Below, in pieces: positions 2,290 through 46,185 of a stretch of 47,505 nt of DNA. How positions within the stretch are numbered: position 1 is the first letter of the stretch; each line of letters starts with the position of its first letter. Location of the stretch: assembly GCA_017458675.1 (NCBI GenBank), contig JAFTAM010000010.1:1-47505 (forward strand), written 5' to 3'. Source of the DNA: a bacterium (GTDB taxonomy: Bacteria > Vulcanimicrobiota > Xenobia > Xenobiales > Xenobiaceae). A program made the translations under genes and the position numbers. The notes under the pieces are model-generated. The model searched no databases. It was given only the letters and a program-made list of their open reading frames with translations, and had not been told where the DNA came from.

Positions 2290-2382
2290 ATGGAAAAATT
2301 TATAGTTATTGTAAATTTAATCGGAAGCCTGGCTTCAATTGCCGGATTCGTTTATTCCATATTTAAGGATAAAAAAAATTAA
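2290..2382 (+). CDS. Small hydrophobic peptide (30 aa), candidate type I toxin
   Basis: The ATG at 2290 sits 8 nt after a perfect GGAGG and opens a 30-codon frame ending TAA at 2382. The peptide starts MEKF and has one hydrophobic segment (about residues 4-25, rich in I, V, L, F, A and G). It ends in a charged KDKKN tail. This single-membrane-span, basic-tail layout is typical of type I toxins and other bacterial small membrane proteins. I cannot assign it to a named toxin family by sequence. A bidirectional terminator follows at once, and a good promoter points back at it from the opposite strand. It could instead be a small membrane protein with an unrelated role. Confidence 0.6.
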   Translation: MEKFIVIVNLIGSLASIAGFVYSIFKDKKN

Positions 2383-2487
2383 AACCGCCCAAAGTTTTCC
2401 CAGACCAAAGCGGTTTTAATTTTGTTCAAAAATTAAACGCGAAAAGGAAGCTTTATATGCCGTCTATCAGAAGGCGCTTCTTTTCTT
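2371..2487 (-). ncRNA. Predicted convergent antisense RNA to the small peptide gene
   Basis: A minus-strand promoter (TTGACA at 2522-2517, 17-nt spacer, TATTTT at 2499-2494) predicts a start near 2487. The transcript would carry a small hairpin (AGAAGcgcCTTCT) and end at the shared terminator hairpin followed by eight T residues (2378-2371). Its length would be about 115 nt. Its 3' half is complementary to the 3' end of the peptide message. No open frame of note is present. This arrangement matches 3'-overlapping type I antitoxins such as RatA. Confidence 0.55.
2378..2424. terminator. Bidirectional terminator shared by peptide gene and antisense RNA
   Basis: The 11-bp stem ATTAAAACCGC (2378-2388) pairs with GCGGTTTTAAT (2410-2420). 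T residues follow on both strands: 2420-2424 on plus, and 2378-2371 read on minus. Confidence 0.8.
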
Positions 2488-15780: not shown

Positions 15781-15822
15781 GGCTTTTTTGAGATTCCTTT
15801 GTTGAATATGCAAGTATAGATT

Positions 15823-16038
15823 CTTCGCTGCGCTCAGAATGACACTAATGTGCTGCCGCCCTGAGCCGTATTTTCGGTCGTGCGTATCCGTTTTATCTGT
15901 TGTGCTGATCCGTTCAATATGCTGTCCTGATCCATTTTATTTAGCATTTTGAGCCGATCCGTTTGTCATCCTGAGCCGACAGGCGAAGGATCTATATTCC
16001 TATAGGCGTCGGATTCTTCGCTGCGCTCAGAATGACAA
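15823..16038. repeat. REP-like elements between LRR genes
   Basis: A CTTCGCTGCGCTCAGAATGA half-element lies near 15827-15846. A complete pair (TCATCCTGAGCCG, GCGAAGGATCT, then the CTTCGCTGCG half) lies at 15966-16038. The space between has degenerate GTCCTGATCC-like copies. Confidence 0.75.
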
Positions 16039-16103
16039 ATACGGTGATGTGTGTCTTCGAAACGGTCTGCCCGCCTGACGCGACAGTAACGGTCCGGCGG
16101 GTT

Positions 16104-17718: not shown

Positions 17719-17750
17719 TATTTAGGCTCCTTTGTTGAATATGCAGGCAT

Positions 17751-17975
17751 AGATTCTTCGCTGCGCTCAGAATGACATGAATGAGCTGCCGCTCTGGGCC
17801 GTTTTATCTGTCGCGCTGAAATGTTTAATACGTTGTGCGGAGTCGTCTTATTGGTCATCCTGAGCCGCTCAATTTGTCATCGGGAGTTGCATCATTTGTC
17901 ATCCTGTGTCGCTCCATTTGTCATCCTGAGCCGATAAGCGAAGGATCTATATTCCTATAGGCGTCAGATTCTTCG
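17751..17975. repeat. REP-like elements between LRR genes
   Basis: A CTTCGCTGCGCTCAGAATGA half (17756-17775) lies just upstream of the frameshifted LRR gene. Several TCATCCTG(A/T)G halves and a full pair end at 17975. The full pair shares GGATCTATATTCCTATAGGC with 15966-16038, so the two gaps carry near-identical copies. Confidence 0.75.
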
Positions 17976-18057
17976 CAGTGTGATGCGGACAAAAAGGCGA
18001 GACGTGTCTGTCGGCACAGTCTGCCCGCATGACGCGAGCGCAACGGTTCGGCGGGTT

Positions 18058-21048
18058 TCAGCTGTCTGTCAGACCCCAGGCTTGGGCGGCTTCGTAAAAG
18101 GCCTCGAAGCTGCCGTAAACATTGCCCCTCCAGGTTATGCTTTTGAGCTCTCGGCACTTGTCGAAGCATCGGCTGCCTATGAAGGCGACGCTGTCCGGAA
18201 TTTTTATGCTTTTCAGATTGCTGCAGCCGCAGAAGGCCCGGCGGCAGATTCTGGCTGTGCCGTCGGGGAGATTGACAGCCGTCAGCGCTTTACAGCCGCA
18301 GAAGGCTTCTTCTCCTATGACGGAGACGCCGTCGGGAATTTGTATGCTTTTCAGATTGCTGCAGCCGCAGAAGGTTCGGCGGCATATGCCGGCAGTGCCG
18401 CTGGGGAGAATGACGGCCGTCAGAGCTTTACAGTCTCTGAAAGCTTCTTCTCCGATGACGGAGACGCCGTTCGGAATATGTATGCTTTTCAGACTGTCGC
18501 AGCCGCAGAAAGCATTGCTGCCGATACCTTTTACGTTTGGGAAAATAACGGCCTCAGTGAGACGGCTGCAGCATGCAAAGGCCTCGCTGCCGATCATGGC
18601 GGCGCTGTCGGGGATGATGACTTTAGTTAAGCAAGACCAAGCATAGGCGCTGCGCTCGGAGGCGTCTTCGGCGACAAAGCCGGAGTCGAAAAGCCCGTTT
18701 TTGGCTTTCTCAAAATCCGCGGCGCATGAATACTCCTGACCTCGCCAGAGGATGCGTTTCAGGTTTTGACATCTTTCAAATATATCGGCGCCGATATAAG
18801 CGGAGCCGTCTGCAATAGAGGCGCTTGTAAGACAGCGGCAGTTCCTGAAGGCGGAGTCTTCTATTTTAGCTGCGCTTTCGGGAATATGGATTTCGCTCAG
18901 ACTGGCGCAGCCGCAGAACGCTTCTCTGCCTATGGTCCTGAGGCCGGAGGGAAAGCTTATGCTTTTCAGGCTGCTGCATCCGGCGAAGGCCTGTTTATCA
19001 ATTTTGGCGATGCTGTCGGGAATAAGTATTTCTGTCAGACTGCTGCAGCCGCTGAATACGGCGGATTCGAGCTCGGCAAGTCCGTCGGGAAGATTGATGG
19101 CTTTCAGACTTTTGCAGTCTTTGAAGGCTTCGCCGATGATTCTTTTGACGCTGTCGGGAATATGTATGCAAGCGAGGCTGCGGCAGCTTTCAAAGGCGCT
19201 GCCGCCGATTTCGGCGGCGCCCTCGGGGATGAATGCTTCGATAAAGCTGCTCCTTGCGTAAGCGTATTCTACGGAAGCCATGACAGCGTTTAGACGCCTG
19301 TCAAGGAGCTCGGTTTTAGCTTTGACAAACTCGCCGACGCCGTTCAATATCCGCCCTCTCCAGACGATGCGCTTTAAGTCTGCGCAGCCGGCAAAGACGT
19401 CGTCGGCGATGCTTTCAATTCCGTCCGGAATTGTTATATCGGTCAGACCGCAGTTCGCGAAGGCTTTACAGCAAAGCCTTTTGAGGCTGTCGGGGAGGAT
19501 TATTTCGGTCAGACTTCGGCAGTCTGCGAAGGCTTCTTCAGCTATTTCGGTGAGGCTGTCGGGGAGAACTGCCTCGCTGAGATTGGAGCATCCCGCAAAT
19601 GCCTGCCATTCAATTCTGTCGATTCCCTGAGCGGCAGCCGCGCTTTTTAAGTTTTGGCAGTCCTGAAATGCGCGGTATCCAACGCCGGTCCAAGTGTAAG
19701 GAATGACGGCGTTCCAGGGTACGTCCCTCCTGAAATCTGTGTTTTGCAGCAGAGAGTATTCTGATACGCCGCTAAAAGTCGGACCGAATACCTTTATTTT
19801 CTCCTGTTCAAATTCGTTTGCATCTGCAAAGGTTTTGCCTCTCCAGATAATGCCTGTGAGGCAGCCGCAGCCCTCGAAGATGTTTCCGCCGATATAAATT
19901 AGAGCATCGGGAAGTTTTATGCTTTTCAGACTGGCGCAGCCGGAAAAAGCTCCTTCGCCGATTCTGCAAAGGCTGTCGGGCAGGGCGGCGGAGGCTAGGG
20001 AGCGGCAGCCGCTGAAGGCGTATTTGCCTATGCGCTCGGTCCCTTCGGGGATAATAACGCTTATTAGTGTACTGAAATCGGCATAGGCTCTGTTTTCAGA
20101 AGCCTTTTCGGCTTTGAAATCCGTATCCATAAGCGCAGTTTTGGCTTGGCTGAAGGCCTTGACGCTCGTATATGTTTTGCCTCGCCATAAAATGCTTGTC
20201 AGCTTAGGACAAGAGTCAAATACGCCCTCGCCGATAAATTCGATGCGGTTGGGAAGAACTGCGCTGCTCAGGCTACCGCAGTCTGCAAATGCGCCTGCGC
20301 CTATGGAGGAGACGTTCTGAGGAATTACGGCTCGGGTTAAGCTGCGGCAGCCGCGGAAGGCCTCGCTGCCGATGCTTCTGAGGCTGTCGGGAAATCGTAC
20401 GCCGGCCAGGGAGGCGCAGCCGCTGAAAGAGCTGTCTTCGACGCTTTCGAGGCTGTCTGGGAGTTTGACGGCGATAAGCGCGGCGCAGCCGGAGAAGGCG
20501 TGCTTTCTTACGGCGGCTATGTTTGCGGGAATATCAATTTCGCTTAAAGCGGAGCATTTCGAAAAAGCGTTTCTCCCCAGCGCTGTCAGGCTTTGCGGCA
20601 GACGGAGGCTTTTTAAGCTGCGGCAGCCGCTGAAAGCGTTATTTCCGATTGAGGCCAGACCGTTTGGCAGACGGACGGCTGTTAAGCTGACGCAGCCGGC
20701 AAAGGCGGCGCTGCCGATTGACTTGAGGCTGTCGGGCATCTTGATTTTGGTCAGCCCAGTGCATTGGGCAAAGCACTCGCTGCCGATTTTAACGGTGGAA
20801 CCCGGTATACTGACGTTTGAAAGAGCGCTGCAGCCTTTGAAAGCGCTGCTGCCGATATCCTTTACGCTGTCGGGAATGACGAGTCCGCGCAGGCTGCTGC
20901 CCGCAAAGCTTTTGCAGCCGATTCTGCCAAGATTTGGAGGAATTACGGCTTCGGTAAAGTCCTGACGCCCATTGTATGCGTTGTTAAGGTGGGCTTTGTC
21001 GGCAATAAAGGCTTTGCCGGAGTTTTGCTCTGCGGAAACATTGGGCAT
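18058..21048 (-). CDS. BspA-type LRR protein, five modules (996 aa)
   Basis: ATG 21048 (MPNVSAEQNSGKAFIADKAH) sits 8 nt after AAAGGAG. The protein is a long array of about 23-residue LRR_5 repeats. Caps ILWRGKTYTSVKAF, IIWRGKTFADANEF, IVWRGRILNGVGEF, ILWRGQEYSCAADF and the terminal ITWRGNVYGSFEAF divide it into five modules. Each internal cap is followed by a helix-like linker and a new N-cap such as ASENRAYADF. Near the C-terminus a two-repeat block (about 138 bp, roughly 18200-18500) is duplicated almost exactly. There is no signal peptide, transmembrane helix or cell-wall signal. Function is unknown beyond likely protein binding. Confidence 0.85.
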   Translation of the reverse strand: MPNVSAEQNSGKAFIADKAHLNNAYNGRQDFTEAVIPPNLGRIGCKSFAGSSLRGLVIPDSVKDIGSSAFKGCSALSNVSIPGSTVKIGSECFAQCTGLTKIKMPDSLKSIGSAAFAGCVSLTAVRLPNGLASIGNNAFSGCRSLKSLRLPQSLTALGRNAFSKCSALSEIDIPANIAAVRKHAFSGCAALIAVKLPDSLESVEDSSFSGCASLAGVRFPDSLRSIGSEAFRGCRSLTRAVIPQNVSSIGAGAFADCGSLSSAVLPNRIEFIGEGVFDSCPKLTSILWRGKTYTSVKAFSQAKTALMDTDFKAEKASENRAYADFSTLISVIIPEGTERIGKYAFSGCRSLASAALPDSLCRIGEGAFSGCASLKSIKLPDALIYIGGNIFEGCGCLTGIIWRGKTFADANEFEQEKIKVFGPTFSGVSEYSLLQNTDFRRDVPWNAVIPYTWTGVGYRAFQDCQNLKSAAAAQGIDRIEWQAFAGCSNLSEAVLPDSLTEIAEEAFADCRSLTEIILPDSLKRLCCKAFANCGLTDITIPDGIESIADDVFAGCADLKRIVWRGRILNGVGEFVKAKTELLDRRLNAVMASVEYAYARSSFIEAFIPEGAAEIGGSAFESCRSLACIHIPDSVKRIIGEAFKDCKSLKAINLPDGLAELESAVFSGCSSLTEILIPDSIAKIDKQAFAGCSSLKSISFPSGLRTIGREAFCGCASLSEIHIPESAAKIEDSAFRNCRCLTSASIADGSAYIGADIFERCQNLKRILWRGQEYSCAADFEKAKNGLFDSGFVAEDASERSAYAWSCLTKVIIPDSAAMIGSEAFACCSRLTEAVIFPNVKGIGSNAFCGCDSLKSIHIPNGVSVIGEEAFRDCKALTAVILPSGTAGICRRTFCGCSNLKSIQIPDGVSVIGEEAFCGCKALTAVNLPDGTARICRRAFCGCSNLKSIKIPDSVAFIGSRCFDKCRELKSITWRGNVYGSFEAFYEAAQAWGLTDS

Positions 21049-21079
21049 TTTTAGACTCCTTTGTTGAATATGCAAGCAA

Positions 21080-21105
21080 AGATTCTTCGCTGCGCTCAGA
21101 ATGAC
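21080..21105. repeat. REP-like half-element
   Basis: A CTTCGCTGCGCTCAGAATGA half lies directly upstream of the five-module LRR gene. A similar half plus TTGCATATTCAACAAAGGA-type leader precedes three LRR genes. The rest of the gap to 21681 shows no convincing gene. Confidence 0.75.
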
Positions 21106-21681
21106 AGCAGAGAAGGACGCAGCGCAGTAAATGCGGGGCGGATATTACGAATGTCAAGACCGTATAAACGGCAAAAAGGGCTTAAAATGGCAAACGAAAC
21201 AGACGCCCTGAGCGCGGTACGGAACAGGCGTTAAGAATGCTGAATAGGGAATGTCGGGGTCAGTGAAGTTAAAGGACGTTCATACGGACAGACAATAAAT
21301 TCATAATGATGTGACGCGGCAGCCGCTGAGAGCGCTGCCGCAGGCTGAGGCGGAGCCGTTCGGTATGCCGGCTTTATTTATACGCCGGCTGTATCTGCAG
21401 GTTCAGTTGATAAGGTCTTTGCCGACGGCGGCAGGAGGCGCGTCGGAGATGGTACGCTTTTGGCTAAAAATGTCTTAAATGATTCATTTTATTCTTTCAA
21501 TTATGCGTCTATGTTTCTGCGTGCAGAGAAATGTTCCTGCCTTCGTTTAATAAATTTCGCAAAATATGTTTAATAACTGTAAAAACGTCTAATAATCGTC
21601 ATTTTAAGTTTTCAGAAGCTTTAAATCTGCCGGTTATTAATGTTGCAGGACATTATTCGCCAACAGCAGATTAAGCCTGAA

Positions 21682-21720
21682 ATAAAAAAAGACGGCGCAG
21701 TCGCTTTACGTCCGTCTTTA
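21682..21720 (-). terminator. Rho-independent terminator of the four-module LRR gene
   Basis: Read on the minus strand, AAAGACGG (21720 side) pairs with CCGTCTTT, and a T run follows (21690-21684). Confidence 0.8.
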
Positions 21721-21798
21721 TTCCGGCAGGCTGCTTTTCCCGCGCGGCTTAACCGCGAGCGGCTGCGCCGAACCTTTGGCAAACGCGGGAAGCGCATA

Positions 21799-24700
21799 TC
21801 AGTCGAGCCAGTCTGGATAATCAGGTTCGGGATCCCATGCTTCCATAACGCCGCTGGCCTGGGCCGCTCTGTAAAAATCCTCTGGGCTGGTGTAAATATT
21901 GCCGCGGAATACTATATGCTCTAAGCTGGAGCAGCGTTCAAAGGCCTCTTTCCCGATTTCGCTCACGCTGTCGGGAATGTTTGCCGAAGTCATAGAAGAG
22001 CAGTCTGCAAATGCTTCCGCGCCTATCTTGACAAGGCTGTCCGGAAGAATAATATCTTCGAGACCTTCGCAGCATGAAAACGCGCAGTCGCCTATTTCCG
22101 AAAGGCCGTGGGGAAGTACGGCCTTTCGCAGATGCTCGCAGCCTGAAAAGGCTTTGCTTCCGATATATTTTGTGTTTTCGGGGACGGTAATTTCCGTCAG
22201 GCTTTGGCAGCCGCGGAAGGCTTCTTCGCCGATTTCGGCGAGACTGTCGGGGAGACTGATTCGCTCCAATCCGGCGCAGTCTCCAAAGGCTAAGCGGCCG
22301 ATGCGCTCCGTCCCTTGGGGCACGCCGGCGCTGATTAAGTGGTCGCAGCCCAGATAGGCGCTGTCTTCGTCGGCTCTGTCCGCGCAGAAGTTCCTGTCGA
22401 GCAGCTCGGTTTTGGCTTTATTGAATTCTTCTGGGCTTTTATATATTGTTCCCCTCCAGGAGATGCTGCAGAGATTGGGGCAATCGCTGAAAATGTCGTC
22501 GCCGATAATTTTTATGCCGTCGGGAATGATAATATCAGTCAAGCCGCACTTTGAAAAAGCCGCGCCGCCGATTCTCTCAATATCTTCAGGAATGATAATC
22601 CCGGTCAGTTTGCGGCATTCAGCGAAGGCGCAGTCTTTGATTTCGGCTAAGGACTTGGGAAGGCGGACTTTCTCCAGCTCTGTGCAGTCAAAAAAGGCAA
22701 AACCGTCAATTATTTTTAATCCGTCCGGCAGTACAGCCGCCTTCAGCTTTTCACAGGCAGAGAAGGCGGAAAAGCCGATTTCGCTCAGACTGTCGGGAAG
22801 ACTGATGCGTTCGAGGTCGGTGCATCCGTAAAATGCGGAGCTGCCGATACGCTCTGTTCCGTCGGGAACTTTTATGCCGATCAGAGAGGAACAGTGGTCA
22901 TAAGCCCATGATTCACCGGCTCTGTCGGCGCGGAAGCGTTTGTCGAGCAGTTCGGTTTTGGCCTTATAAAAGTCCGACGCGCCTTTGTATATTTTGCCTC
23001 TCCAGGCTATGCTTCCGAGTTTGGGACAGCCGTCGAAAACAGCTGCGCCGATTAGCTTCAGGCAGTCGGGGAGGCGGATTTCCGTCAGCGCGGCGCAGTC
23101 CCGGAAAGCGTCTGCGTCGATGCGGAGCAGGCTCTCCGGAAGCGCGATGCGTTTCAGATTGACGCAGCCCTTGAAGGAGCCTTCGGAGATTTCCTTTATG
23201 CTTTCCGGAAGCGTTATTTCTGTCAGTCCGACGCAGCCGGCGAAGGCCTCTTCGCCGATTCTGACCGTGCCGCCGAAGCTTATCCGCGTAAGACTGCCGC
23301 AGTTTGCAAAGGCCCGCCGGCCGATTTCAGCCTTGCCTGCGATATTCAGATTGGTTAAGCCGCCGCAGTCCGCAAACGCGCTGTCGCCTATTATGGCGGC
23401 GCTGTCGGGAATTCTTAGGCTTTTCAGGCTGCCGCAGCATCTGAAGGCTTCTTCGGGAATTTCCGTCAGGCCTTCGGGAAGCGTGATCTCCTTTAAGGCG
23501 GCGCAGCCGGCGAAGGCCATTCTGCCGATCCTTGCGGCGGCCTCGGGGATATTGACGGAGGTAAGGGCCGTGCAGCCTAAAAATGTTTTGGGTTTGATTG
23601 CGCTTATTCCGTCGGGCAGCCTGATTTCTGTCAGGGAGCGGCAGTATTTAAAGGCGCTTTCTCCGATAGCTTTCAGTCCTTCGGGCAGATTTATCTCTGT
23701 AAGGCCGGTGCAATATGCAAAGGCGCAGGTTCTGATTTCGGCGGCGCTGTCGGGAAGACTTATCCGCTCGAGGCCGCGGCAGCTTTCAAAGGCCCGCCGG
23801 CCGATGCGTTTTATGCCCTGAGGAACGCCGGCGCTGATGATATGTTCGCAGTTTAAATAGGCTTCGTTTTGGTCGGCCCGTTTGGCGCGGAAGTTTTTGT
23901 CGAGCAGCTCGGTCCTGGCCTTATAAAATTCCTCAGCGCTTTTGTAGGTTTTGCCTCTCCAGACAATTCTGTTTAAGCTGGGACATTCCGCGAATATGTC
24001 CTTTCCGACAAACTCCAGACCGTCGGAAAGTCTGACTTCGGTGAGAGAGCTGCATTTTTTAAAGGCGCTGCCGTCAATTTCGGCGACGCTGTCGGGAAGC
24101 GTCAGGCTTTTCAGAGCGCCGCATCCCATAAAGGCCCCGAAGCCTATTTCGGAAACGCTGTCAGGCAGGCTGATATGTTTCAGGCTTTCGCATCTGAAAA
24201 AAGTCCAGGAGCGGATTTTCTCAACTCCGTAGGGGACGCTGACGGCGGCGAGGCTGCTGCATTCCTTGAAGGCGCGTTCGCCGATTTCCGTAAGGCTGCC
24301 GGGGAGGGTTATTTCTGTCAGGGAGCTGCAGCCTGAGAATGCGCAGTCGTCTATTTCGGCGAGGGTTTCGGGAAGTTCAACGCTCTTCAGACTGCCGCAG
24401 TTCGCGAAGACGGCGGCTTTAATTTTGTTTACGCGGCCGGGAATAACGATTTTTTCCAAACCGCAGTAACTGAAGGCGCTGCCGTTGATATAAACGAGGC
24501 TTTCGGGGAGCTCAATGCTTTTAAGACTGACGCAGTCGTTAAAGGCGCTTGAGTTGATATGGGTTATGCTGTCGGGAAGCGCGGCGCTTTTCAGATTTTC
24601 GCACCAGCCGAAGGCGAACCTCGCGATGCATTTCAGGCTGTGCGGAAGGCTGATTTCAGCGAGGCTGCCGCATTGCACGAACGCCCCTTCGCCAATTTCG

Positions 24701-24966
24701 CTTACGCTGTCGGGAATGTTGACCGAGGTCAGATTCCAGCAGTATGCGAATGCGTATCTGCCGATTTTGACAAGACCGTCGGGGAGCCTTATTTTCTCTA
24801 AATTGCCGCACCATGCGAATGCGGATCTGCCGATTTGCGCCGTGCCCTCCGGTACGGCGGCTTCTTTAAAACCGCCGCATTCGCAATAGGCCCAGTCGGT
24901 ATGGGAGTTATCGGCTGTAAAGACGTCTGCCGCAGCCTGCAGCCAGGGGGAATTTGTTTCGGACAT
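21799..24966 (-). CDS. BspA-type LRR protein, four modules (1055 aa)
   Basis: ATG 24966 (MSETNSPWLQAAADVF) follows AAGGAG by 9 nt. A near-consensus promoter lies just upstream and a terminator downstream, so this gene is probably transcribed alone. LRR_5 repeats fill the protein. Caps IVWRGKTYKSAEEF, IAWRGKIYKGASDF and ISWRGTIYKSPEEF are each followed by a nearly constant linker (YKAKTELLDKRFRADRA and variants). They separate modules that all restart with RADxxxAYxxCxxLI. The end cap is IVFRGNIYTSPEDF, followed by a tail DPEPDYPDWLD. No secretion signal is visible. The regularity of the linkers makes this the clearest example of the module plan. Confidence 0.85.
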   Translation of the reverse strand: MSETNSPWLQAAADVFTADNSHTDWAYCECGGFKEAAVPEGTAQIGRSAFAWCGNLEKIRLPDGLVKIGRYAFAYCWNLTSVNIPDSVSEIGEGAFVQCGSLAEISLPHSLKCIARFAFGWCENLKSAALPDSITHINSSAFNDCVSLKSIELPESLVYINGSAFSYCGLEKIVIPGRVNKIKAAVFANCGSLKSVELPETLAEIDDCAFSGCSSLTEITLPGSLTEIGERAFKECSSLAAVSVPYGVEKIRSWTFFRCESLKHISLPDSVSEIGFGAFMGCGALKSLTLPDSVAEIDGSAFKKCSSLTEVRLSDGLEFVGKDIFAECPSLNRIVWRGKTYKSAEEFYKARTELLDKNFRAKRADQNEAYLNCEHIISAGVPQGIKRIGRRAFESCRGLERISLPDSAAEIRTCAFAYCTGLTEINLPEGLKAIGESAFKYCRSLTEIRLPDGISAIKPKTFLGCTALTSVNIPEAAARIGRMAFAGCAALKEITLPEGLTEIPEEAFRCCGSLKSLRIPDSAAIIGDSAFADCGGLTNLNIAGKAEIGRRAFANCGSLTRISFGGTVRIGEEAFAGCVGLTEITLPESIKEISEGSFKGCVNLKRIALPESLLRIDADAFRDCAALTEIRLPDCLKLIGAAVFDGCPKLGSIAWRGKIYKGASDFYKAKTELLDKRFRADRAGESWAYDHCSSLIGIKVPDGTERIGSSAFYGCTDLERISLPDSLSEIGFSAFSACEKLKAAVLPDGLKIIDGFAFFDCTELEKVRLPKSLAEIKDCAFAECRKLTGIIIPEDIERIGGAAFSKCGLTDIIIPDGIKIIGDDIFSDCPNLCSISWRGTIYKSPEEFNKAKTELLDRNFCADRADEDSAYLGCDHLISAGVPQGTERIGRLAFGDCAGLERISLPDSLAEIGEEAFRGCQSLTEITVPENTKYIGSKAFSGCEHLRKAVLPHGLSEIGDCAFSCCEGLEDIILPDSLVKIGAEAFADCSSMTSANIPDSVSEIGKEAFERCSSLEHIVFRGNIYTSPEDFYRAAQASGVMEAWDPEPDYPDWLD

Positions 24967-24990
24967 AGGTTGCAGCTCCTTATTTCGGTG

Positions 24991-25019
24991 ATTATAGCTC
25001 TGCTGAAATTTATTTTCAA
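24991..25019 (-). promoter_or_regulatory. Sigma-70-type promoter of the four-module LRR gene
   Basis: TTGAAA (25019-25014), a 17-nt spacer and TATAAT (24996-24991) read on the minus strand. Predicted start is near 24984, about 18 nt before the start codon and just ahead of the ribosome binding site. Confidence 0.75.
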
Positions 25020-25200
25020 CGGATTATGCGCTGTTTTTAACCAAAATATACCGTTATTTTGTTATATGTGACATTTTTAGTCAGCCAAAAAGCCAGCGGC
25101 AGGGCCTTGCCGCATTGTTTGAGTCAGTTTGACGGTCACGGATCAGAAGCTGTCAGAGGAATTACTGAACTGAGAAAAAAAGCGATTTCCGCGGCAATAC

Positions 25201-25324
25201 TGCCGGTAATTTAAGCAAAAACAGGCTTTCAGCATACATGCTTTACACAGGTTTTGTTGTGCGCTGAAGCGAGCGTCCGAGCGAAGTGCAGTCGCGGAGC
25301 GAAGTGCAAAAGAAAACTGGCATA
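25201..25324 (-). repeat. Dispersed hairpin repeat, copy D (subfamily 2)
   Basis: This is a full copy in reverse orientation. GCCGGTAATTTAAGCAAAAA begins the conserved tail, followed by AGCATACATGC, then an inverted repeat GGTTTTGTTGTGC...GCAAAAGAAAACTGGCATA around a GC-rich middle nearly identical to copy C. Confidence 0.8.
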
Positions 25325-25332
25325 GCGAACAA

Positions 25333-25457
25333 TGTCGGTAAGTTAAGCAAAAACAAGCTTTCGGCATACATGCTTAATAAAGGTTTTCTTTGACGTGTAC
25401 GCGGAGATTCGAGCGTAAGCGAGCGCGGAGCGGTAACGGCAAAGAAAACCGACATAA
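25333..25457 (-). repeat. Dispersed hairpin repeat, copy E (subfamily 1)
   Basis: Eight base pairs after copy D and in the same orientation: GTCGGTAAGTTAAGCAAAAA, then CATACATGCTTAATAAA, then the perfect inverted repeat GGTTTTCTTTG...CAAAGAAAACC. The middle resembles copy A and differs from its neighbour D. Confidence 0.8.
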
Positions 25458-25479
25458 CGAAAACAAGCAGAACAGGCTT

Positions 25480-25509
25480 TATAGATTCTTCGCTGCGCTC
25501 AGAATGACA
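25480..25509. repeat. REP-like half-element
   Basis: A CTTCGCTGCGCTCAGAATGA half follows copy E. No gene is seen between here and the Sel1 pseudogene at 25688. Confidence 0.7.
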
Positions 25510-25687
25510 AGGAAAACATATCCAAGCATTGTTAAACAAGATAATATACCTTTTTTAGCTATATTTTGCCTTAACTTTATTACATTGATTTCCGGGGTGA
25601 TATGGCGATATGTTAACAAAAACGAAGAAGACAGTTGTATATGCTTGACGAATAAGAAATAATCTGTTGCAGAGGAGCTATTTGGCT

Positions 25688-27167
25688 ATGGACGATCGAA
25701 ATTTAAATGACGGACACGCCGACAACGGAGCGGACGCTTCGGAGTCTTCTTTAGGGCGCATTCTGTTTGTCTGCTTTATTATTGCTGCCTGTGCGGCTGG
25801 TGCGGCAATATTTTATCATCGCTCAGTATCGGACTCAGAGCCTGAAGCGGCGCAGACAGTGCAGGTTCGCCAGCCGCGGCAGAGCGAATCATGCTGCTCA
25901 TGAAGACGCAGAAGGCGGCGCGGTGTCTGAAACGCTCAAAGGCTTTATAGCTGATTTTAAAGATAAGATTAATTCAGCGGTCGGGGAGAATAAGCCGGAT
26001 ACGGACAAATTGACTGCTGACGCCGAAAAGGGAGACGCTGAGGCTCAGCTTCAGTTAGGAAAAGCATATTATTCAGGCAGCGGAATAAAAAAGGATCATG
26101 AAAAAGCTTTTATGTGGCTAAAAAGGTCTGCTGAAAACGGAAATGCCGAGGCACAGCTGCTTCAAGGTTTTGTTGATTTTGAATCGGACGATAAGGCTGA
26201 GGCTGAGAAACGGTTCAGAGCTTCGGCCGATCAAGGCAATATAACGGCTCAGTATGCGCTCGGAGCTTTGTGTGAGGAGGACTTCGAAAATCATAAGAGC
26301 GACGTCGCCGAGGCTTTAAAGTGGTATCGAAAGGCTGCCGATCAGGGGTTTGCGGAAGCTCAGTGCGCTCTCGGACTGCATTATTACTGCGGCAGCGGCG
26401 TCGGCAAGGATTACGGTGAGGTTTTTAAGTGGTTTAAAAAAGCGGCCGATCAGGGCAATGACAGAGGAGAGTATCTGGTTGGCAACAGTTAAAAGCACGG
26501 GCACGGAGTGGAGCAGAATTATGCCGAAGCCTTTAAGTGGTATATGGAATCTGCAAAACAAGGCTATGCAGATGCGGAAAGCCAGGTCGCATGTTTATAT
26601 GCCACCGGCAGCGGCGTCGGGCAAAATAACGGTGAAGCCGCAGAATGGTTTAAATAAGCTGCCGAGCACGTCAATGCATACTCGCAATATACGTTGGGGC
26701 TGCTCTGCCTGACAGGCTCAGGCGTAAGACAGAGCGATACTGAAGCTTTCAAATGGTTTAAAGAAGCGGCTGAACGGGGATACGTCAAGGCGCAGTATCA
26801 GCTCGGCTGTATGTATCACCAGGGAGTCGGCGTAAAGGCGGACCTCAATGAAGCTTTTAAATGGTTAAAAACGGCGGCCTTCCAGGGAAATGCCGAGGCT
26901 CAGGAGGAAGTAGGCGAGTTTTACGAAGCCGGTGCAGGTGTGCCCAGGGATCTGAACGAGGCCTTTAAATGGTATAAAAAGGCGGCGGAGCAGGGCGTTG
27001 ACAAAGCCATGATAAGTGTTTCCAGTATGTATCTTGCAGGCGAGGGTACCGAACAGAACGAAGCGGAAGCTGTCAGGCGGCTGAAGGCAGTTCCTAAAGA
27101 CAGTGAGCTGAGGCCTTTGGCCGATCAGTTGCTTGAAGCGATAGAGGCCGCCAACAGCGGCAAATAA
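25688..27167 (+). pseudogene. Membrane-anchored Sel1-repeat protein, three disabling lesions
   Basis: ATG 25688 (MDDRNLNDGHADN) follows GAGGAG. The N-terminal part has a membrane span (about residues 30-48, ILFVCFIIAACAAGAAIF). The frame shifts by one base near 25870-25900. The Sel1 frame then runs from about 25900 to 27167, broken by in-frame TAA at 26490-26492 and again at 26655-26657. Both stops sit inside well-aligned repeats (WFK-stop-AAEHVNAYSQYTLGLL). Repeats such as AADQGFAEAQCALGLHYY and AAERGYVKAQYQLGCMYH mark at least eight Sel1 units. Three lesions make a sequencing artefact unlikely. It resembles the intact Sel1 protein at 6114-8807 in layout and sits on the strand opposite the LRR genes around it. 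Confidence 0.85.
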
Positions 27168-27187
27168 TGCGCCGCTGCTTTAACGGA

Positions 27188-27224
27188 GAGCCCCGCGCAG
27201 GCATATCCTGAGCGGGGCTCTTTT
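27188..27224 (+). terminator. Rho-independent terminator after the Sel1 pseudogene
   Basis: GAGCCCCGC (27188-27196) pairs with GCGGGGCTC (27212-27220), followed by TTTT. It also lies 3' of the converging LRR gene but lacks a T run on that strand. Confidence 0.85.
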
Positions 27225-27267
27225 AATTGTATTCCAATTTGCTTTTCTTTTCGGGCTCCTTTGACCG

Positions 27268-28506
27268 TTATTTCTGCTCAGCCGCGGCAGCGCTGGAATT
27301 GCGCAGGCTGTTGAAGGCTTTAAAGAAACCGTCCGCGTCGGCGTAGCTTTCGCCTCTGAATTTTATGGTTTTCAGATTATCGCAGCCTAAAAAAGCATCT
27401 TCGTCGATTTCGGCAATACCGTCGGGCAGGGTGACGGAAGTCAGACTGCTGCATTCGCAGAACGCTTCTTCGCCGATTTTGACGACGCTGTCGGGAACGG
27501 TTATCTCAGTAAGGGCGCCGCATTCTCCGAAAGCTCCTGCGCCGATCTCGGCCGGTCCGTTTTGAATAGTGACGCTTTTAAGATTTATGCAGCCGAAAAA
27601 GGAATAGTTACTGATTTTGGATACGCTGCCCGGTATGCATATTTCGGTAAGGCTGAGGCAGTGTTCAAAGGCGTCTGGGCCGATTTCGGCTGCGCCCTCG
27701 GGTATGTTGACGCTTTCAAGAGCGGAGCAGTTAAAGAAGGCATGATTGCCGATTTTGGTGACGCTGTCGGGAATAATGACGCTTTTAAGGCCGGTGCATA
27801 AGCAGAACAGATAATCGGCGACAACCGTGAGGTTATTGGGCAGTCTGACGCCGGTTAACTCTTTGCACGAGCGGAATGCGCTGACGCCGATACGGGTGAC
27901 GCTGTCGGGAAGATCGATGTTTTTAAGGCTGCTGCAGCCGGTGAAGGCATTGGCTTGAATTGCGCCGACGCCTTCGCGGATAGTTATATCAGTCAGAGCG
28001 CCGCAGTCTTTAAAGGCGCAGAGGTCGATGAGGCCGACCGAACCCGGTATGCTGATGCGCGTCAGTTTGCTGCATTGCGAGAAGGCCTCTGCCCCAATAT
28101 AGTTAAGGCGGGGCGGAAGCTCGATATTAGCCAGGCTGCAGCAGTTATTAAAAGCAAAATTACCAATATCTGTTACGCTGTCGGGAATTCTGACGGAGGT
28201 CAGACCGGTGCAGTCTTTGAAAGTTCCTTCGTAGATATCGACGGTGCAGGAAGGAATCTCGACGCTCTTCAGACTGATGCAGTCATAGAAGGTATACGCA
28301 CCGATAAGGCGGGCGTTGCCGTGAAGTTCGATGCTTTCCAGCCTATGGCATTTTGCGAAGGCCAGTCCGCCTATTTCCTCAACATCTTTCGGAACAGCAG
28401 CTTTTATTATATCGTTATTGCCCTCATAGGCCCTGTTGCGATGGGCGTGTTCCGCTATGAAGACGTCAGTTTCAGTCTGCGGATTTTGAGAATTTGTTTC
28501 AGACAT
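27268..28506 (-). CDS. BspA-type LRR protein, single module (412 aa)
   Basis: ATG 28506 (MSETNSQNPQTETDVF) follows AAGGAG. It has one N-cap (IAEHAHRNRAYEGNNDI), about sixteen LRR_5 repeats and one C-cap (IKFRGESYADADGF). A short tail rich in alanine and serine ends it. It shows the minimal module and shares its first residues with the 1055-residue paralogue. No signal peptide or anchor. Function unknown beyond likely protein interaction. Confidence 0.85.
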   Translation of the reverse strand: MSETNSQNPQTETDVFIAEHAHRNRAYEGNNDIIKAAVPKDVEEIGGLAFAKCHRLESIELHGNARLIGAYTFYDCISLKSVEIPSCTVDIYEGTFKDCTGLTSVRIPDSVTDIGNFAFNNCCSLANIELPPRLNYIGAEAFSQCSKLTRISIPGSVGLIDLCAFKDCGALTDITIREGVGAIQANAFTGCSSLKNIDLPDSVTRIGVSAFRSCKELTGVRLPNNLTVVADYLFCLCTGLKSVIIPDSVTKIGNHAFFNCSALESVNIPEGAAEIGPDAFEHCLSLTEICIPGSVSKISNYSFFGCINLKSVTIQNGPAEIGAGAFGECGALTEITVPDSVVKIGEEAFCECSSLTSVTLPDGIAEIDEDAFLGCDNLKTIKFRGESYADADGFFKAFNSLRNSSAAAAEQK

Positions 28507-28623
28507 AATTATTGCGCTCCTTATAGGTATAATAGGATTATGCTCCGGCCGCTCTTTCCGTCATGCGGGAACAGCGGCGCGGATTTGCCGGCCGGTCACG
28601 TTTCCTGCCCGGTTTTATGCCTG

Positions 28624-31600
28624 TCAGGCCTTCATAACGCCGCAGGCTCGGGCCGCTTTGTAAAAGGTTTCGGCGTCGGAGTAGGTACTGTTCCGGAAAA
28701 TTATCTTTTTTAAGCTGCAGCAGCCTTGGAATACGTTTTCTCCTACAGTTTCAACGCTGTCGGGAAGAGTGACGGCTTCTAATTTAATGCAGTCTTTGAA
28801 CGCTTTTTCGCCGATAGTTTCGAGATGGTCAGGGAGCTTAATTTCAGTCAGATTGGCGCATTCGCGGAAGGCTTCGTCCATTATTGCCGTTATGCTGTCA
28901 GGGAGGCTGATTTCTTTGAGTCTGTGACAGTATGCAAATAATTCTGAGCTTATGACGGTAACCTTTTTGGGTATGCTGATGCAGGTCAGGCTGAGGCAGT
29001 CTTTAAAAGCGCCGCTGCGGATATAGGCGACGCTGTTCGGAATACTGATTCTCTGTAAGCGGAGACAGTGACTGAAGGCTTTTTCCTCAATTTCTCTTAA
29101 GCTGTCGGGAAGATCGATGGCTTCCAATTTCTGACAGTAGCCAAATGCTGCTTCGCCAATGCTTTTTACTGTGTTCGGAATGGATACGTTGTTCAGTTTA
29201 ATACACAGGCAGAAGGTATTCCGGCTAATAGTTCTGATTCCGTGGGGAAGCGCTATTTCGGTGAGGCTGCAGCAGTTGGCAAATGCGCTTCCTCCGATTT
29301 TTCTGATCGTATCGGGCAGGCTGACTTCGGTAAGGCTGCAGCAGTTTTCAAAGGCGCTCGGTCCGATTTTCCTGAGTCCCTCCGGCATGTTGACGCTGAC
29401 GAGGTCTAAGCAGTTTTCGAAGGCGCTTTTGCCGATTGTATCGATACCGCGGGGAATAACAGCATTTACCAGGGAGCTGCGGTTTATGTAGGCTTCTTCC
29501 TTACAGGCTTGATCGGCTTTGAAATTCAGATCTATAAGTTCTGATTTTGCTTTGTCGAATTCATCGGCATTTGTGTATATTTTTCCGCGCCAAAGTATGC
29601 TCTTCAGGCTGTGACAGTGCGCAAAAACGCCATTGCCTATTTCTGTTACGCTGTCGGGAATAATGACGGATGTGAGAGAGCAGCCGCAGAAGGCTTGGTC
29701 GCCTATAAACGCGACGCTTTCCGGTATGCTGATTTCAGTAAGTTTTCTGCAGTGAACGAAAGCGCGCTCTCCTATGCTCTTAAGATGGCCGGAAAGGTGT
29801 ATTTTGGCCAGATTTCGGCAGTGTGCGAAGGCATTTTCACATATTCCGGCGAGGCTGTCCGGCAAAAATATTTCGGTAAGGCCGTCGCAGTCCTCGAAGG
29901 CCTGATCAAAGATGGTTTCCAGACTGTCCGGGAAATGTACCTCTGATAAACGGAAACAGTTTATGAATTTTCTGTATAAAACGGCCGTGATTCCTTTTGG
30001 AACAGTAACTTTCCTCAGGGAGGACAGGTTTCTGAATGCAATAAAGCGGTTATAGGTATAGATATTGTCGATACAGGTTATTCCATCTTCGTATTCACCA
30101 CTAATCTCTGTTTCCGTTTCCAAATATTCCGCAGCGTATTCCGTAAACTCGCCGAGGCTTGAATAGGATTTGCCGTTCAGAACGATTTCCGTTAAAAGAG
30201 GGCAGTCCTTGAACGCGTCTTTTCCCAAAATTTCAAGAGAGGACGGAAGAACAACTTTCGTAAGGCCTTTGCAGCCGGAGAAAGCGCCTTCGCCTATAAA
30301 AGTTACGCCGTCGGGCAGGATTATTTTCTTTAAGCCGCTGCAGTTTGCAAAGGCATAGCGTTCGACGGAAGTTAAACTCTGCGGCATGTTCGCTTCCTCA
30401 AGAGCGCTGCAGTCTTCGAATGCGCTGATTCCGATTTTTTCGACGCCTTCAGAAACAGTCGCTTTTTTTAAGCGGCGGCTGCCTTCAAAAGCATGATTGC
30501 CTATTGCTAAATCGTCAGTATAATCCGGGCAGGTGATAACGGCTTCGGTATAACCGGAGTCCATGCAGCATTCGTCCAGATGAGCGTCTCCGCTGAACTT
30601 TAAACTGACAAATTCCTTTAAAAATTCATTAAAGCTTGTATATATGCTGCTTTTCCAGACGACGCCTTTAAGTTTGCCGCAGTCTCCGAAAGCATCCTTG
30701 TCAATATATTCGGCGCCGTTGGGTATGATTATAAAACTCAGGTTCTCGCAGCCGTAAAATGCTATGCGGCCTATGTTTTTTAAGCTGTCGGGAAGGCTCA
30801 GTTCCGTCAGGGCGGAGCAGTTATAGAATGCGCTTACACCGATATCGCCGACGCTGTCAGGAAGAGTGACGCTTTCCAGACTGATGCAGTCATAAAAGGT
30901 TGATTTGCTAATTTCTGCAACGCCTTCGGGAATGTGTATGCTTTTCAGAGCTTTGCAGTCTATGAAGCATTTTTCGCCAATGCCGGCAAGACTTTCGGGA
31001 AGCTTGATTTCGGTTAAGCTTAAGCACTTAAAGAAGGCTCTGTCGTCTATGTATTTTATGCCTTCAGGAAGAACCGCAGTCTCCAGACTGAGGCAGAAGG
31101 CAAAGGCGCCGCTTCCGACAGAACCGCTGTCTGCCGTGAGCGCAGAATTCGGTTCTGACGCAGTTTCCTTACCGGCAGGGGCCGATTCCAAAGTAAAAAA
31201 GCCCTTCAGGCTGCGGCAGTTAAAAAACGCTTCTCTTCCGATAGAGATAACGCTGTCAGAAACAATGACATTTTTCAGGCCGGTGCAGTCATAAAAGGCG
31301 TGCTCTCCGATAACTGCGGCGCTGTCGGGAAGCCTGACGCCGGTAAGAGCGCTGCAGCCGGCGAATGCGGAATCGCTTATCGCTTTAACTCCGTCCGGTA
31401 TATCAATTTCAGTCAGGGCGCTGCAGCCCTCAAAGGCGCCGCTGCCGATAAAAGTCACGCTGTCGGGGATTTTAACGCTTTTTAAGCCTGTGCAGCCTGC
31501 AAAGGCGCGTTCACCGATAACGGTGACGCCGTCGGGAATACTGATGCAGGTTATGCCCTTGCAGTCTTCAAAGGCGCTTTTGCCGATCGATTTTATATGA

Positions 31601-32082
31601 TCGGGGATTGTGATCTCCTGCAGATAATAATGTCCCCTGAAGGCTTCGTTTTGATCTGCGCGTTCTGCGGTTACGGGGCCGCGGCTGTAATACCATACGC
31701 AAATGTCTTCGCTGATTCCGCATTTTTTCAGCACGGCGTTGAATTCAAGAAAATCGGTATAGACTTTGCCCTTGAATTTTATGCTTTCCAGGTATTCGCA
31801 GTCGGCGAAGGCCATTTTGCCGATACGTACGATGCTGTCGGGAAGCTCGGCGCTTTCCAGATATCTGCAGTGTTCGAACGCGCCTTCTCCGATATGGGCG
31901 ACGCCGTCGGGAATGGAAACGCTCTTTAAATGCCATTGACGGGCGAAGGCATATGCTCCTATTCTTTCAATACCTTGAGGTATAACAGCATAGTCGAAAC
32001 TTTCAGAAAAGAAGTCTTCAGATATGCAGCAATAAGCCTTATACAAATGCGCTTTGTCGGCGATGACGGTTTTTTTAGACAT
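28624..32082 (-). CDS. BspA-type LRR protein, five modules (1152 aa)
   Basis: ATG 32082 (MSKKTVIADKAHLYKAY) follows AAGGAG by 8 nt. This is the longest LRR protein here. Module breaks fall at IKFKGKVYTDFLEF, VVWKSSIYTSFNEF, IVLNGKSYSSLGEF, ILWRGKIYTNADEF and the terminal IIFRNSTYSDAETF. Caps are more diverged than in the paralogues, with WKS or LNG in place of WRG. One module carries a non-repeat insert (around SAPAGKETASEPNSALT). N-caps ERADQNEAF and DQACKEEAY restart modules. No export signal is visible. Confidence 0.85.
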   Translation of the reverse strand: MSKKTVIADKAHLYKAYCCISEDFFSESFDYAVIPQGIERIGAYAFARQWHLKSVSIPDGVAHIGEGAFEHCRYLESAELPDSIVRIGKMAFADCEYLESIKFKGKVYTDFLEFNAVLKKCGISEDICVWYYSRGPVTAERADQNEAFRGHYYLQEITIPDHIKSIGKSAFEDCKGITCISIPDGVTVIGERAFAGCTGLKSVKIPDSVTFIGSGAFEGCSALTEIDIPDGVKAISDSAFAGCSALTGVRLPDSAAVIGEHAFYDCTGLKNVIVSDSVISIGREAFFNCRSLKGFFTLESAPAGKETASEPNSALTADSGSVGSGAFAFCLSLETAVLPEGIKYIDDRAFFKCLSLTEIKLPESLAGIGEKCFIDCKALKSIHIPEGVAEISKSTFYDCISLESVTLPDSVGDIGVSAFYNCSALTELSLPDSLKNIGRIAFYGCENLSFIIIPNGAEYIDKDAFGDCGKLKGVVWKSSIYTSFNEFLKEFVSLKFSGDAHLDECCMDSGYTEAVITCPDYTDDLAIGNHAFEGSRRLKKATVSEGVEKIGISAFEDCSALEEANMPQSLTSVERYAFANCSGLKKIILPDGVTFIGEGAFSGCKGLTKVVLPSSLEILGKDAFKDCPLLTEIVLNGKSYSSLGEFTEYAAEYLETETEISGEYEDGITCIDNIYTYNRFIAFRNLSSLRKVTVPKGITAVLYRKFINCFRLSEVHFPDSLETIFDQAFEDCDGLTEIFLPDSLAGICENAFAHCRNLAKIHLSGHLKSIGERAFVHCRKLTEISIPESVAFIGDQAFCGCSLTSVIIPDSVTEIGNGVFAHCHSLKSILWRGKIYTNADEFDKAKSELIDLNFKADQACKEEAYINRSSLVNAVIPRGIDTIGKSAFENCLDLVSVNMPEGLRKIGPSAFENCCSLTEVSLPDTIRKIGGSAFANCCSLTEIALPHGIRTISRNTFCLCIKLNNVSIPNTVKSIGEAAFGYCQKLEAIDLPDSLREIEEKAFSHCLRLQRISIPNSVAYIRSGAFKDCLSLTCISIPKKVTVISSELFAYCHRLKEISLPDSITAIMDEAFRECANLTEIKLPDHLETIGEKAFKDCIKLEAVTLPDSVETVGENVFQGCCSLKKIIFRNSTYSDAETFYKAARACGVMKA

Positions 32083-42019: not shown

Positions 42020-42048
42020 TTGCTTTGCTGAGTATATGACGTTACAAT
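42020..42048 (+). promoter_or_regulatory. Promoter of a predicted small RNA
   Basis: TTGCTT (42020-42025), a 17-nt spacer and TACAAT (42043-42048). Downstream there is no open frame, only hairpins and a terminator. Confidence 0.6.
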
Positions 42049-42054
42049 AACAAT

Positions 42055-42183
42055 ATAAAAGGAAAGACAACTGCTGTTTGGCAACCGGCGGCTGTCTCTC
42101 AATATAAATCCCCTTTCGGGTCTTTAGTATTTAGTGAGACATCCACGCAAGCTTGCTATCCTGGTGGGTGTCTCGAGTTTTTT
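42055..42183 (+). ncRNA. Predicted small RNA converging on a small peptide gene
   Basis: The predicted transcript is about 130 nt. It has a strong first hairpin (AGACAACTGCTG paired with CGGCGGCTGTCT, loop TTTGGCAAC) and a terminator hairpin (GAGACATCCAC...GTGGGTGTCTC) ending in six T residues at 42178-42183. These T residues overlap the stop codon of the minus-strand peptide gene. Its body is antisense to the 3' untranslated region of that gene. The layout is that of a type I antitoxin RNA. Function is inferred. Confidence 0.55.
42136..42183 (+). terminator. Terminator of the predicted small RNA
   Basis: Stem GAGACATCCAC with GTGGGTGTCTC (small imperfection) plus inner pairing GCAAGCTTGC, then TTTTTT at 42178-42183. 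Confidence 0.8.
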
Positions 42184-42304
42184 ACTTATATCGACCGAAG
42201 AATCGAATATAAGCGGAAGTGATGATTGCTTTAACATACGGCAGATTGAAACCGCAGTTTAAGTTCCACAACATAAAGATAATGAAAAACAAATCTTCAG
42301 TCAT
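42182..42304 (-). CDS. Small hydrophobic peptide (40 aa), candidate type I toxin
   Basis: ATG 42304 sits 6 nt after an excellent Shine-Dalgarno (AAGGGAGGT on the minus strand, complement of 42311-42319). The 40-residue peptide begins MTEDLFFIIFMLWNLNCGF, so residues 5-15 are strongly hydrophobic. The second half is moderately hydrophobic and ends in basic RFFGRYK. An inverted repeat CTTCGAG...CTCGAAG lies just before the ribosome binding site and may control access to it. A TGCTATCAT extended -10 lies upstream near 42400. The gene faces a predicted small RNA. I do not recognise the family, and there is no sequence match to the 30-residue peptide at 2290. Confidence 0.6.
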   Translation of the reverse strand: MTEDLFFIIFMLWNLNCGFNLPYVKAIITSAYIRFFGRYK

Positions 42305-42467
42305 GGCATCACCTCCCTTCTCTTCGAGAATTTAAATAAAGACTCGAAGGAGAAAACGAGAGGCAGGGACCACCGGAACGGCAGGTATCTTTCCCAGGCT
42401 TTAATGATAGCACAAAAAGGACGCAATATAAAGCGGTATTTGCTTAAAAAAGGTGAATTATTCAGAT

Positions 42468-44748: not shown

Positions 44749-46185
44749 ATGGAGCAGCAACAGAGCAGCGAGGTTTTTTTTAGCGCAGAGTCGGAGAATA
44801 CCGAATTTAAAGTACAGCTTCCCAAAGATTCCGCTAAATATATAAAATCGGTGATTGCCTTTGCCAATACCCAGGGCGGAAGGCTGATTATTGGGGTAGA
44901 TGATAAAACCCGCAGGATTGTCGGTATTGACGGAGACGTTCTTTTTAAGACAATGGACGATATTGCCAACGCCGTTTCAGATTCGTGCGTTCCGCAGATA
45001 GTTCCCCGTATAGAGCCGAAAACCGTTGACGGTAAAAATATTATTGCGGTTACGGTTTCGCCGGGTCCTAACAGACCTTATTATCTTAAATCCAAAGGCA
45101 AAGAGAGCGGCACTTTTATCAGAACTGCCGGCACGTCCAGGCCGGCTTCTGCCGATAAAATTAAAGAGCTGGAAATGGAGGGGAGGCGCGTTTCCTGGGA
45201 CGAGCAGCTCTGTATGGGTTTTGAGGTTACGGAAAACGCCGTGCGCAAGCTTTGCGGGGACGTATTGAAATACCGTGATAAAGCGGGCCTGACTAAGTTG
45301 GCGCTTAGTGAAGCGCAGCTTGTCAGTTGGAAGCTGCTCCGCCGGAACGGGAGCTCTTTTTTGGCTTCCAACGCTTTCGCTCTTCTCGTTTCTGATGTTT
45401 TCCCATTTTCCAAAACTCAGTGCGCAGTCTTTAAAGGCGCCGACCGCGCGGTCTTTCTGGATAAACGCGAATTTTCAGGACCTGTTTATGAACAGATAGA
45501 GCAAGCCGTTAATTTTGTTATGCGCAATATTCGCCTGGGGGCCGTCGTTGAAGGAGCGATTAGGAAAGAAGCCTATGAGCTTCCCGAAGCGGCGGTGCGC
45601 GAAGCTGTCGTCAACGCTCACTGTCACCGCAGCTTTACTGAGGAATCATGCGTACAGATAGCCGTTTACGAAAACCGTTTGGAGGTAACTTCTCCGGGCG
45701 GGCTGTATAACGGTCTCACCCTCAAAGAGGCGCTCAGCGGTCACTCCAGGCTGAGAAATAAGGTTTTGGCCAACCTGCTCAACCAGATGGGCCTGGTCGA
45801 AGCCTGGGGCAGCGGCATCGGCCGCATTATCAGAGCGTCTGATGCTTACGGTTTGCCCGAGCCTGAATTTGTGGAATATGACAGTATGTTCAGGGTCAAT
45901 ATTTTTCGCAGTTCGCCTTATGAGACGCTCGACGGCAGCCGCAGGAAGAAGTCCGCGGCGGTCCGCCGCTCGGAAAACCCGCGCCTGCCTGTAAATGAGA
46001 CGCGGGGCAGAATATTAAAAATAATCGGGGACGACAACAATATTTCAGCGGCAAAGATAGCCGAGGTTCTTTCACTCTCCGTGCGCAGTGTGGAAAAGCA
46101 TTTGAGGGAGCTGCGCGAAGCCGGTCTTCTGCTCAGGCACGGTCCCGCCCGCGGCGGCTATTGGGAAATCGTCAGTTTGGATTAG
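44749..46185 (+). CDS. AlbA/Schlafen-type ATP-binding transcriptional regulator
   Basis: This 478-residue protein has an N-terminal AlbA_2 (Schlafen-like) DNA-binding region (ESENTEFKVQLPKDSAKY, VIAFANTQGGRLIIGVDD). A HATPase_c_4-like region follows (LPEAAVREAVVNAHCHRSF, RLEVTSPGGLYNG, NLLNQMGLVEAWGSGIGRII). A C-terminal winged helix comes last (KIAEVLSLSVRSVEKHLREL, RHGPARGGYWEIV). It lies between hsdM and hsdS, a usual place for such accessory regulators. No clear Shine-Dalgarno precedes ATG 44749. The repeat array immediately upstream is a natural candidate for its own binding site. The first AlbA-type gene (9329-10965) has the same overall plan. Confidence 0.85.
   Translation: MEQQQSSEVFFSAESENTEFKVQLPKDSAKYIKSVIAFANTQGGRLIIGVDDKTRRIVGIDGDVLFKTMDDIANAVSDSCVPQIVPRIEPKTVDGKNIIAVTVSPGPNRPYYLKSKGKESGTFIRTAGTSRPASADKIKELEMEGRRVSWDEQLCMGFEVTENAVRKLCGDVLKYRDKAGLTKLALSEAQLVSWKLLRRNGSSFLASNAFALLVSDVFPFSKTQCAVFKGADRAVFLDKREFSGPVYEQIEQAVNFVMRNIRLGAVVEGAIRKEAYELPEAAVREAVVNAHCHRSFTEESCVQIAVYENRLEVTSPGGLYNGLTLKEALSGHSRLRNKVLANLLNQMGLVEAWGSGIGRIIRASDAYGLPEPEFVEYDSMFRVNIFRSSPYETLDGSRRKKSAAVRRSENPRLPVNETRGRILKIIGDDNNISAAKIAEVLSLSVRSVEKHLRELREAGLLLRHGPARGGYWEIVSLD

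Follow-up and report, generated by a model that had tools for sequence, protein, structure and literature searches.

In the hok/sok system the hok mRNA forms a metastable hairpin while nascent, pairs its 5' and 3' ends, and carries an overlapping frame, mok. The Ldr/Rdl and Ibs/Sib loci of E. coli are multicopy and chromosomal, and are partly arranged in tandem. In the AapA3 mRNA of the Helicobacter AapA/IsoA systems, successive structures involve a first anti-Shine-Dalgarno sequence (aSD1) upstream, a second (aSD2) within the open reading frame, and then an interaction between the 5' and 3' ends (PMC6733600). Modules of Clostridia like CD2517.1-RCd8 of C. difficile consist of convergent genes that overlap at their 3' ends and encode a small hydrophobic toxin (PMC6563280). 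Reports of type I systems are confined to Proteobacteria, Firmicutes, Tenericutes and one cyanobacterium (PMC12390103).

Here we analyze a locus in a 47,505-nt stretch of DNA from a bacterium of the Xenobiaceae, referred to below as the window. A sequence-only reading of the window had proposed that this locus resembles a type I toxin-antitoxin system, arguing from a hydrophobic peptide gene lying under a convergent antisense RNA, from an architecture in common with a second locus at position 2290, and from an adjoining restriction-modification locus. Comparison of the many copies of the locus gives strong support to the first of these arguments, and the other two had to be given up. We estimate a probability of roughly 75% that this multicopy family represents new type I toxin-antitoxin-like modules, controlled by RNA and encoding a putative toxin.

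Copies of the module and their surroundings

Further copies of the unit of ~415 bp, measured from promoter to promoter, are present elsewhere in the window's genome (G000, 3.28 Mb in 196 contigs), with identities of 69-98%. The sequence-only reading had suggested a search for homologous peptides beside a conserved antisense RNA, and this search, by protein and RNA-model matches (the RNA-model E-values being rough), returned at least 16 copies or fragments in this genome. Eleven of these have intact toxin genes (the window copy, C19; C35, twice in tandem; C83; C5; C114, twice; C21; C153; C88; and C27), one is frameshifted but keeps its RNA parts (C33), two are cut by contig ends (C35c and C140), and two are antitoxin-only copies in which the antisense gene is kept without the toxin (C92 and C82). 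One more copy was found in a genome of the same family (G004), and the 12 intact copies aligned for comparison are therefore 11 from the window's genome and this one. Among other genomes of the phylum, no copy was found in 147 by protein search or in 146 by RNA model. The viral contigs searched contained no relative, and a phage origin was rejected on this ground. Two further RNA-model matches, C147 and C82:26411, were rejected as family copies and are ordinary terminator hairpins.

Neighboring genes vary from copy to copy, and most copies adjoin unrelated, often housekeeping, genes. The window copy lies upstream of hsdM, and the restriction-modification adjacency that had been taken as an argument for addiction is thus specific to this copy. 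Kinship with the locus at position 2290 was likewise rejected, as that locus is single copy and has no match to the family RNA model.

Several other features of these regions were observed. At 2291-2383 (plus strand) the window encodes a 30-aa peptide, MEKFIVIVNLIGSLASIAGFVYSIFKDKKN, with a strong Shine-Dalgarno sequence and a nearby terminator-like hairpin; this peptide is single copy in the genome, and its matches to PF12669 (E 0.064) and phrog_4514 (E 0.0093) are weak. The protein encoded after hsdM (44749-46185, plus strand) has weak PADLOC pAgo/PDC-S50 matches, and four scanned ORFs of 779-1152 aa at 13474-32082 (minus strand) are BspA-type leucine-rich repeat proteins with a strong LRR_5 match. 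In C92 (L078), a gene for a 422-aa zinc-ribbon-like protein (6848-8116) extends into the antitoxin-only copy, its end lying within or next to the terminator hairpin. A REP-like repeat, GTCATTCTGAGCGnAGCGAAGAATCT, occurs in the window at 8941, 11011, 15818, 16011, 17751, 21080, 25483, 41965, 42464 and 42566, and a sister repeat, GTCATCCTGAGCC....GGCGAAGGATCTTTG, has four copies there; both are also found around other module copies.

The peptide gene and its coding selection

The putative toxin ORF (42304..42182, minus strand) runs from an ATG to a TAA stop codon (42184..42182) and encodes 40 aa, MTEDLFFIIFMLWNLNCGFNLPYVKAIITSAYIRFFGRYK. It is apparent on direct reading and is retained in the 12-copy family. 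Its Shine-Dalgarno sequence (SD), GGGAGGTGAT (42317..42308, minus strand), contains a perfect GGAGGT 6 nt before the ATG that is invariant in all 12 copies, in agreement with the strong ribosome-binding site and hydrophobic 40-codon peptide described previously from the sequence.

Peptides of the family are 39-42 aa long, with the consensus MTEDLFxIFFxLWxLTDGFNPxYVxAxxxSAYIxxxxxYK, in which E, F, W, L, GF and SAY are invariant across copies. A strongly hydrophobic stretch of ~11 residues occupies positions 5-15, and GRAVY values computed for three peptides were 0.48-0.62, which places these peptides within the small (<60 aa), hydrophobic class of type I toxins. The peptide is probably membrane-active. 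Features that speak against a type I toxin are the length of the hydrophobic stretch, only ~11 residues, a net charge that varies among copies from -2 to +2, and a weak AlphaFold model of two helices predicted at low confidence (pLDDT 71).

The family peptides had no match in Pfam or NCBIfam at E<=1, known toxin models included, and Rfam gave no match in the window at the gathering threshold, with no hok or sok RNA recognized. Against PHROGs, the C35a peptide resembles phrog_5891 (E 0.057) and the window peptide phrog_21286 (E 0.24), neither of which has a known function; by our reading, matches this weak do not name the family.

Mean pN was 0.22 vs a mean pS of 0.53 among the 12 intact copies, and the corrected ratios were mostly 0.1-0.5. 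Frame +0 is open in 12 of 12 intact copies, none of which has an unbroken alternative frame; the single "1" in the frame count of C21 reflects the stop codon of that copy, which lies one codon earlier. As judged from this comparison of copies, purifying selection acts on the peptide. The window peptide departs from the consensus at three near-invariant sites (T16N, D17C and P21L) and is less constrained relative to C5, its nearest relative (dN/dS 0.67), and because of these departures and this ratio the window copy may be decaying or loosening.

These data bear on whether the unit could be a selfish structured repeat of the REP/MITE type, spread together with the surrounding palindromic repeats and containing an incidental ORF. 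Such an element would account for the many dispersed copies and for the GTCATTCTGAGCGnAGCGAAGAATCT repeats that flank many of them (10 occurrences in the window), but it would not be expected to show coding selection and one conserved frame; several copies also lack flanking repeats, and the repeats occur far from the module as well. We regard this explanation as highly improbable.

A predicted antisense RNA gene on the opposite strand

On the plus strand, a promoter TTGCTT-N17-TACAAT (42020..42048; -35 at 42020-42025, -10 at 42043-42048, 17-nt spacer) precedes a predicted antitoxin antisense RNA of ~130 nt (42054..42186), which is complementary to the toxin stop codon and 3'UTR. The RNA would end at a terminator hairpin (42136..42174, plus strand; arms 42136-42146 and 42164-42174) whose T run (42178-42183) overlaps the ORF stop codon. 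Promoter, RNA and terminator are those reported in the sequence-only reading, now backed by comparison of copies. The sequence thus predicts an antisense gene that has a promoter and a terminator to itself and whose RNA is complementary to the peptide mRNA, and the predicted promoters and ends make the two genes convergent with overlapping 3' ends.

Taken alone, the plus-strand promoter and terminator are weak signals: the promoter matches 8 of 12 consensus positions, the terminator loop exceeds 8 nt, and a simple consensus scan lists neither of them. The case for their reality comes from comparison. Fourteen copies keep the TTG, a spacer of 17 nt and the -10, with a mean pairwise identity of 79% in the -35, 50% in the spacer and 90% in the -10. 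Since these elements are kept in a multicopy unit whose minus-strand RNA folds better than shuffles and which has a single open frame, the locus as described goes beyond chance.

Where one strand can form a G-U pair, the opposite strand has an A-C mismatch, and the balance between the two tells which strand is structurally constrained. In the antisense RNA helices 97.1% of cells are paired, with 39 G-U vs 4 A-C cells on the plus strand, and two-sided covariation is present. The terminator helix is paired in 100% of cells on the plus strand, and in 11 of 12 copies it contains a U-G pair whose minus-strand counterpart is a C-A mismatch. It could still be proposed that there is no antisense RNA, that the plus-strand hairpin is mRNA structure or a bidirectional terminator, and that the promoter match arose by chance. 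The result of the consensus scan would agree with this proposal, as would the likeness of the mRNA 3' hairpin to ordinary terminators elsewhere in the genome (C147 and C82:26411). It is made very unlikely by the preservation of the TTG-N17 spacing and -10 in 14 copies whose spacer sequences vary freely, by U-G pairs that exist on the plus strand only, and by the retention of the unit in antitoxin-only copies.

Competing pairings in the peptide mRNA

The predicted toxin promoter (42404..42432, minus strand), found by consensus scan, combines a weak -35, TTTATA, with an extended -10, TGTGCTATCAT, and its -10 region is kept across copies. The predicted toxin mRNA is ~339 nt (42057..42395, minus strand), with estimated ends and, at its terminus, a 3' hairpin followed by TTTCCTTTT. 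This end looks like other intrinsic terminators in the same genome. Several copies have a short T run, a point against the proposed reading. Folding of the minus-strand RNA is 8.7 sd better than that of shuffled sequences, a control that does not take out the relatedness of the copies, though the slid controls given below preserve it.

Three pairings were identified in this RNA. In the first, aSD1 (CUGCCUCUCG, 42357..42366, minus strand) in the 5'UTR pairs through CUGCCUCUC with the SD in the nascent 5'UTR, with 91% of cells paired vs 58-72% in slid controls and with two-sided covariation in the hairpin. The upper stem of this hairpin is the inverted repeat CTTCGAG (42322-42328)/CTCGAAG (42343-42349), spanning 42322..42349, which the sequence-only reading had already noticed before the ribosome-binding site. 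In the second, aSD2 (CAUCACUUCC, 42215..42224, minus strand), which lies within the ORF, is paired with the SD in 99% of cells, vs 27-70% in slid controls, and 12 cells show two-sided changes; in the C35a/C35b/C83 group the SD-side sequence GUAGUUG is matched by an altered ORF side, UAACUAC or UAACUGC. In the third, the 5'UTR (5' arm 42340..42395, minus strand) pairs over a long distance with the 3'UTR (3' arm 42057..42122, minus strand), with aSD1 pairing with GAGAGACAG in the full-length RNA. This interaction comprises 43 pairs, of which six show two-sided changes, and is paired in 92.4% of cells vs 41-52% in slid controls, with 59 G-U vs 7 A-C cells on the mRNA strand. Strand-specific G-U pairing is thus found in the antisense RNA and in the mRNA, indicating from the sequence comparison that both strands encode structured RNAs.

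The first pairing is incompatible with both the second and the third, which are compatible with each other. Compensatory changes support these competing mRNA pairings, with covariation that partly rests on recent duplications, since all but one of the 12 aligned copies belong to a single genome. When transcripts of increasing length are folded, the SD lies first in aSD1 and next in aSD2, and the 5'-terminal part of the 5'-3' pairing closes only over the last ~10 nt of the transcript. In the full-length RNA the predicted probability that the SD is unpaired is at most ~0.17. The SD was still held when the antisense-covered region was blocked in silico, and mRNAs of six copies trimmed at the 5' or 3' end and folded in silico gave no SD-free form. 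Covariation and folding both point to an occluded ribosome-binding site on the primary toxin mRNA. Because nested folding ignores pseudoknots and ribosomes, an activation of the structural kind described for TimP (PMC11228461) is possible by analogy. Because the 5'UTR and the antisense RNA both pair with the 3'UTR, the 5'UTR is similar, with modest scores, to the 5' portion of the antisense RNA, and the two would therefore compete for one site.

Proposed mode of control

The anatomy of the unit, the coding selection, the strand-specific RNA structure and the covariation of all three pairings are directly visible in the copies. To these we add transcription of the two genes, toxicity of the peptide and decay of the RNA duplex, which we infer. 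The minus strand would produce an mRNA of ~340 nt for the small hydrophobic peptide, and the plus strand an antisense RNA of ~130 nt lying over its stop codon and 3'UTR. During transcription the SD would be caught by the upstream aSD1 and then by the in-ORF aSD2; upon completion of the transcript, aSD1 and the rest of the 5'UTR would pair with the 3'UTR (~43 bp), leaving the SD on aSD2. With the SD held by aSD2 and the 5'UTR paired with the 3'UTR, the full-length mRNA would thus be silent and stable. The antisense RNA, once bound to the 3'UTR, would form with it a long duplex that RNase III would probably cleave; in some copies this binding would also return aSD1 to the SD. Any mRNA that escaped its fold would be destroyed through the antisense duplex, and loss of the antisense RNA would allow the activated form of the mRNA to accumulate.

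The same switch and antisense RNA would fit equally well if the peptide were a small membrane protein under antisense control with a regulatory or stress role and without addiction or killing. Toxicity of the peptide is putative, and copies scattered among diverse chromosomal genes would not have to serve addiction. Redundant layers of silencing on a 40-aa hydrophobic peptide are less readily explained in this way, and the frameshifted C33, with its RNA parts kept, and the antitoxin-only C92 and C82 are typical of toxin-gene remnants; we consider a non-toxin role unlikely, if credible.

Comparison with known systems

Read as type I-like modules, members of this family resemble AapA/IsoA of Helicobacter (PMC6733600) as multicopy chromosomal genes for a small peptide with a cis-overlapping antisense RNA, and in the aSD1, in-ORF aSD2 and 5'-3' long-distance interaction of the full-length mRNA. 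They differ in that the databases give no likeness for the RNA and, for the peptide, only the weak PHROGs matches, the antisense RNA lies over the stop codon and 3'UTR, the SD stays in aSD2 and not in the ~43-bp 5'-3' pairing, and trimming of the 3' end does not free the SD (in silico, six copies). The metastable nascent hairpin and the silencing of full-length mRNA by 5'-3' pairing are also features of hok/sok, but here no mok-like overlapping frame was seen, the antisense RNA lies at the 3' side, and the peptide is unrelated. The convergent layout with 3'-end overlap and a small hydrophobic toxin is that of TxpA/RatA, BsrG/SR4 and CD2517.1-RCd8-like modules, from which the present family differs in having no sequence match, varied chromosomal neighbors and extensive 5'-3' pairing of the mRNA. 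Several chromosomal copies, partly in tandem (C35), recall Ldr/Rdl and Ibs/Sib, whereas the peptide, antisense placement and mRNA fold differ. As read from its sequence, the family joins the mRNA logic of hok and AapA to the layout of Gram-positive systems, in which convergent genes overlap at their 3' ends, and does so with a peptide and an RNA that show no recognized relationship to theirs. With sequences of this kind, it is described here as working like a type I system and is not assigned to a named family.

Sequence searches find type I systems only with difficulty, and the anti-SD switching of AapA3 needed genetic selection to be revealed (PMC6733600). In the present family, with its dozen copies, each regulatory helix shows compensatory changes that arose naturally, and these provide comparative evidence for co-transcriptional anti-SD switching. 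The SD was never predicted to be free, which raises the question of how such peptides are ever translated. A search of the window's genome for 16S rRNA found none, and 16S rRNA from the same order reaches at most ~81% identity to any 16S carried on a plasmid, in keeping with an unusual phylum. We tentatively suggest, as a possibility on the doubtful side, that this is a type I-like family outside the known phyla, that its activation, given no predicted SD-free form, would be unlike the 3' trimming of hok and AapA, and that the RNAs of its antitoxin-only copies may have an anti-addiction role in trans.
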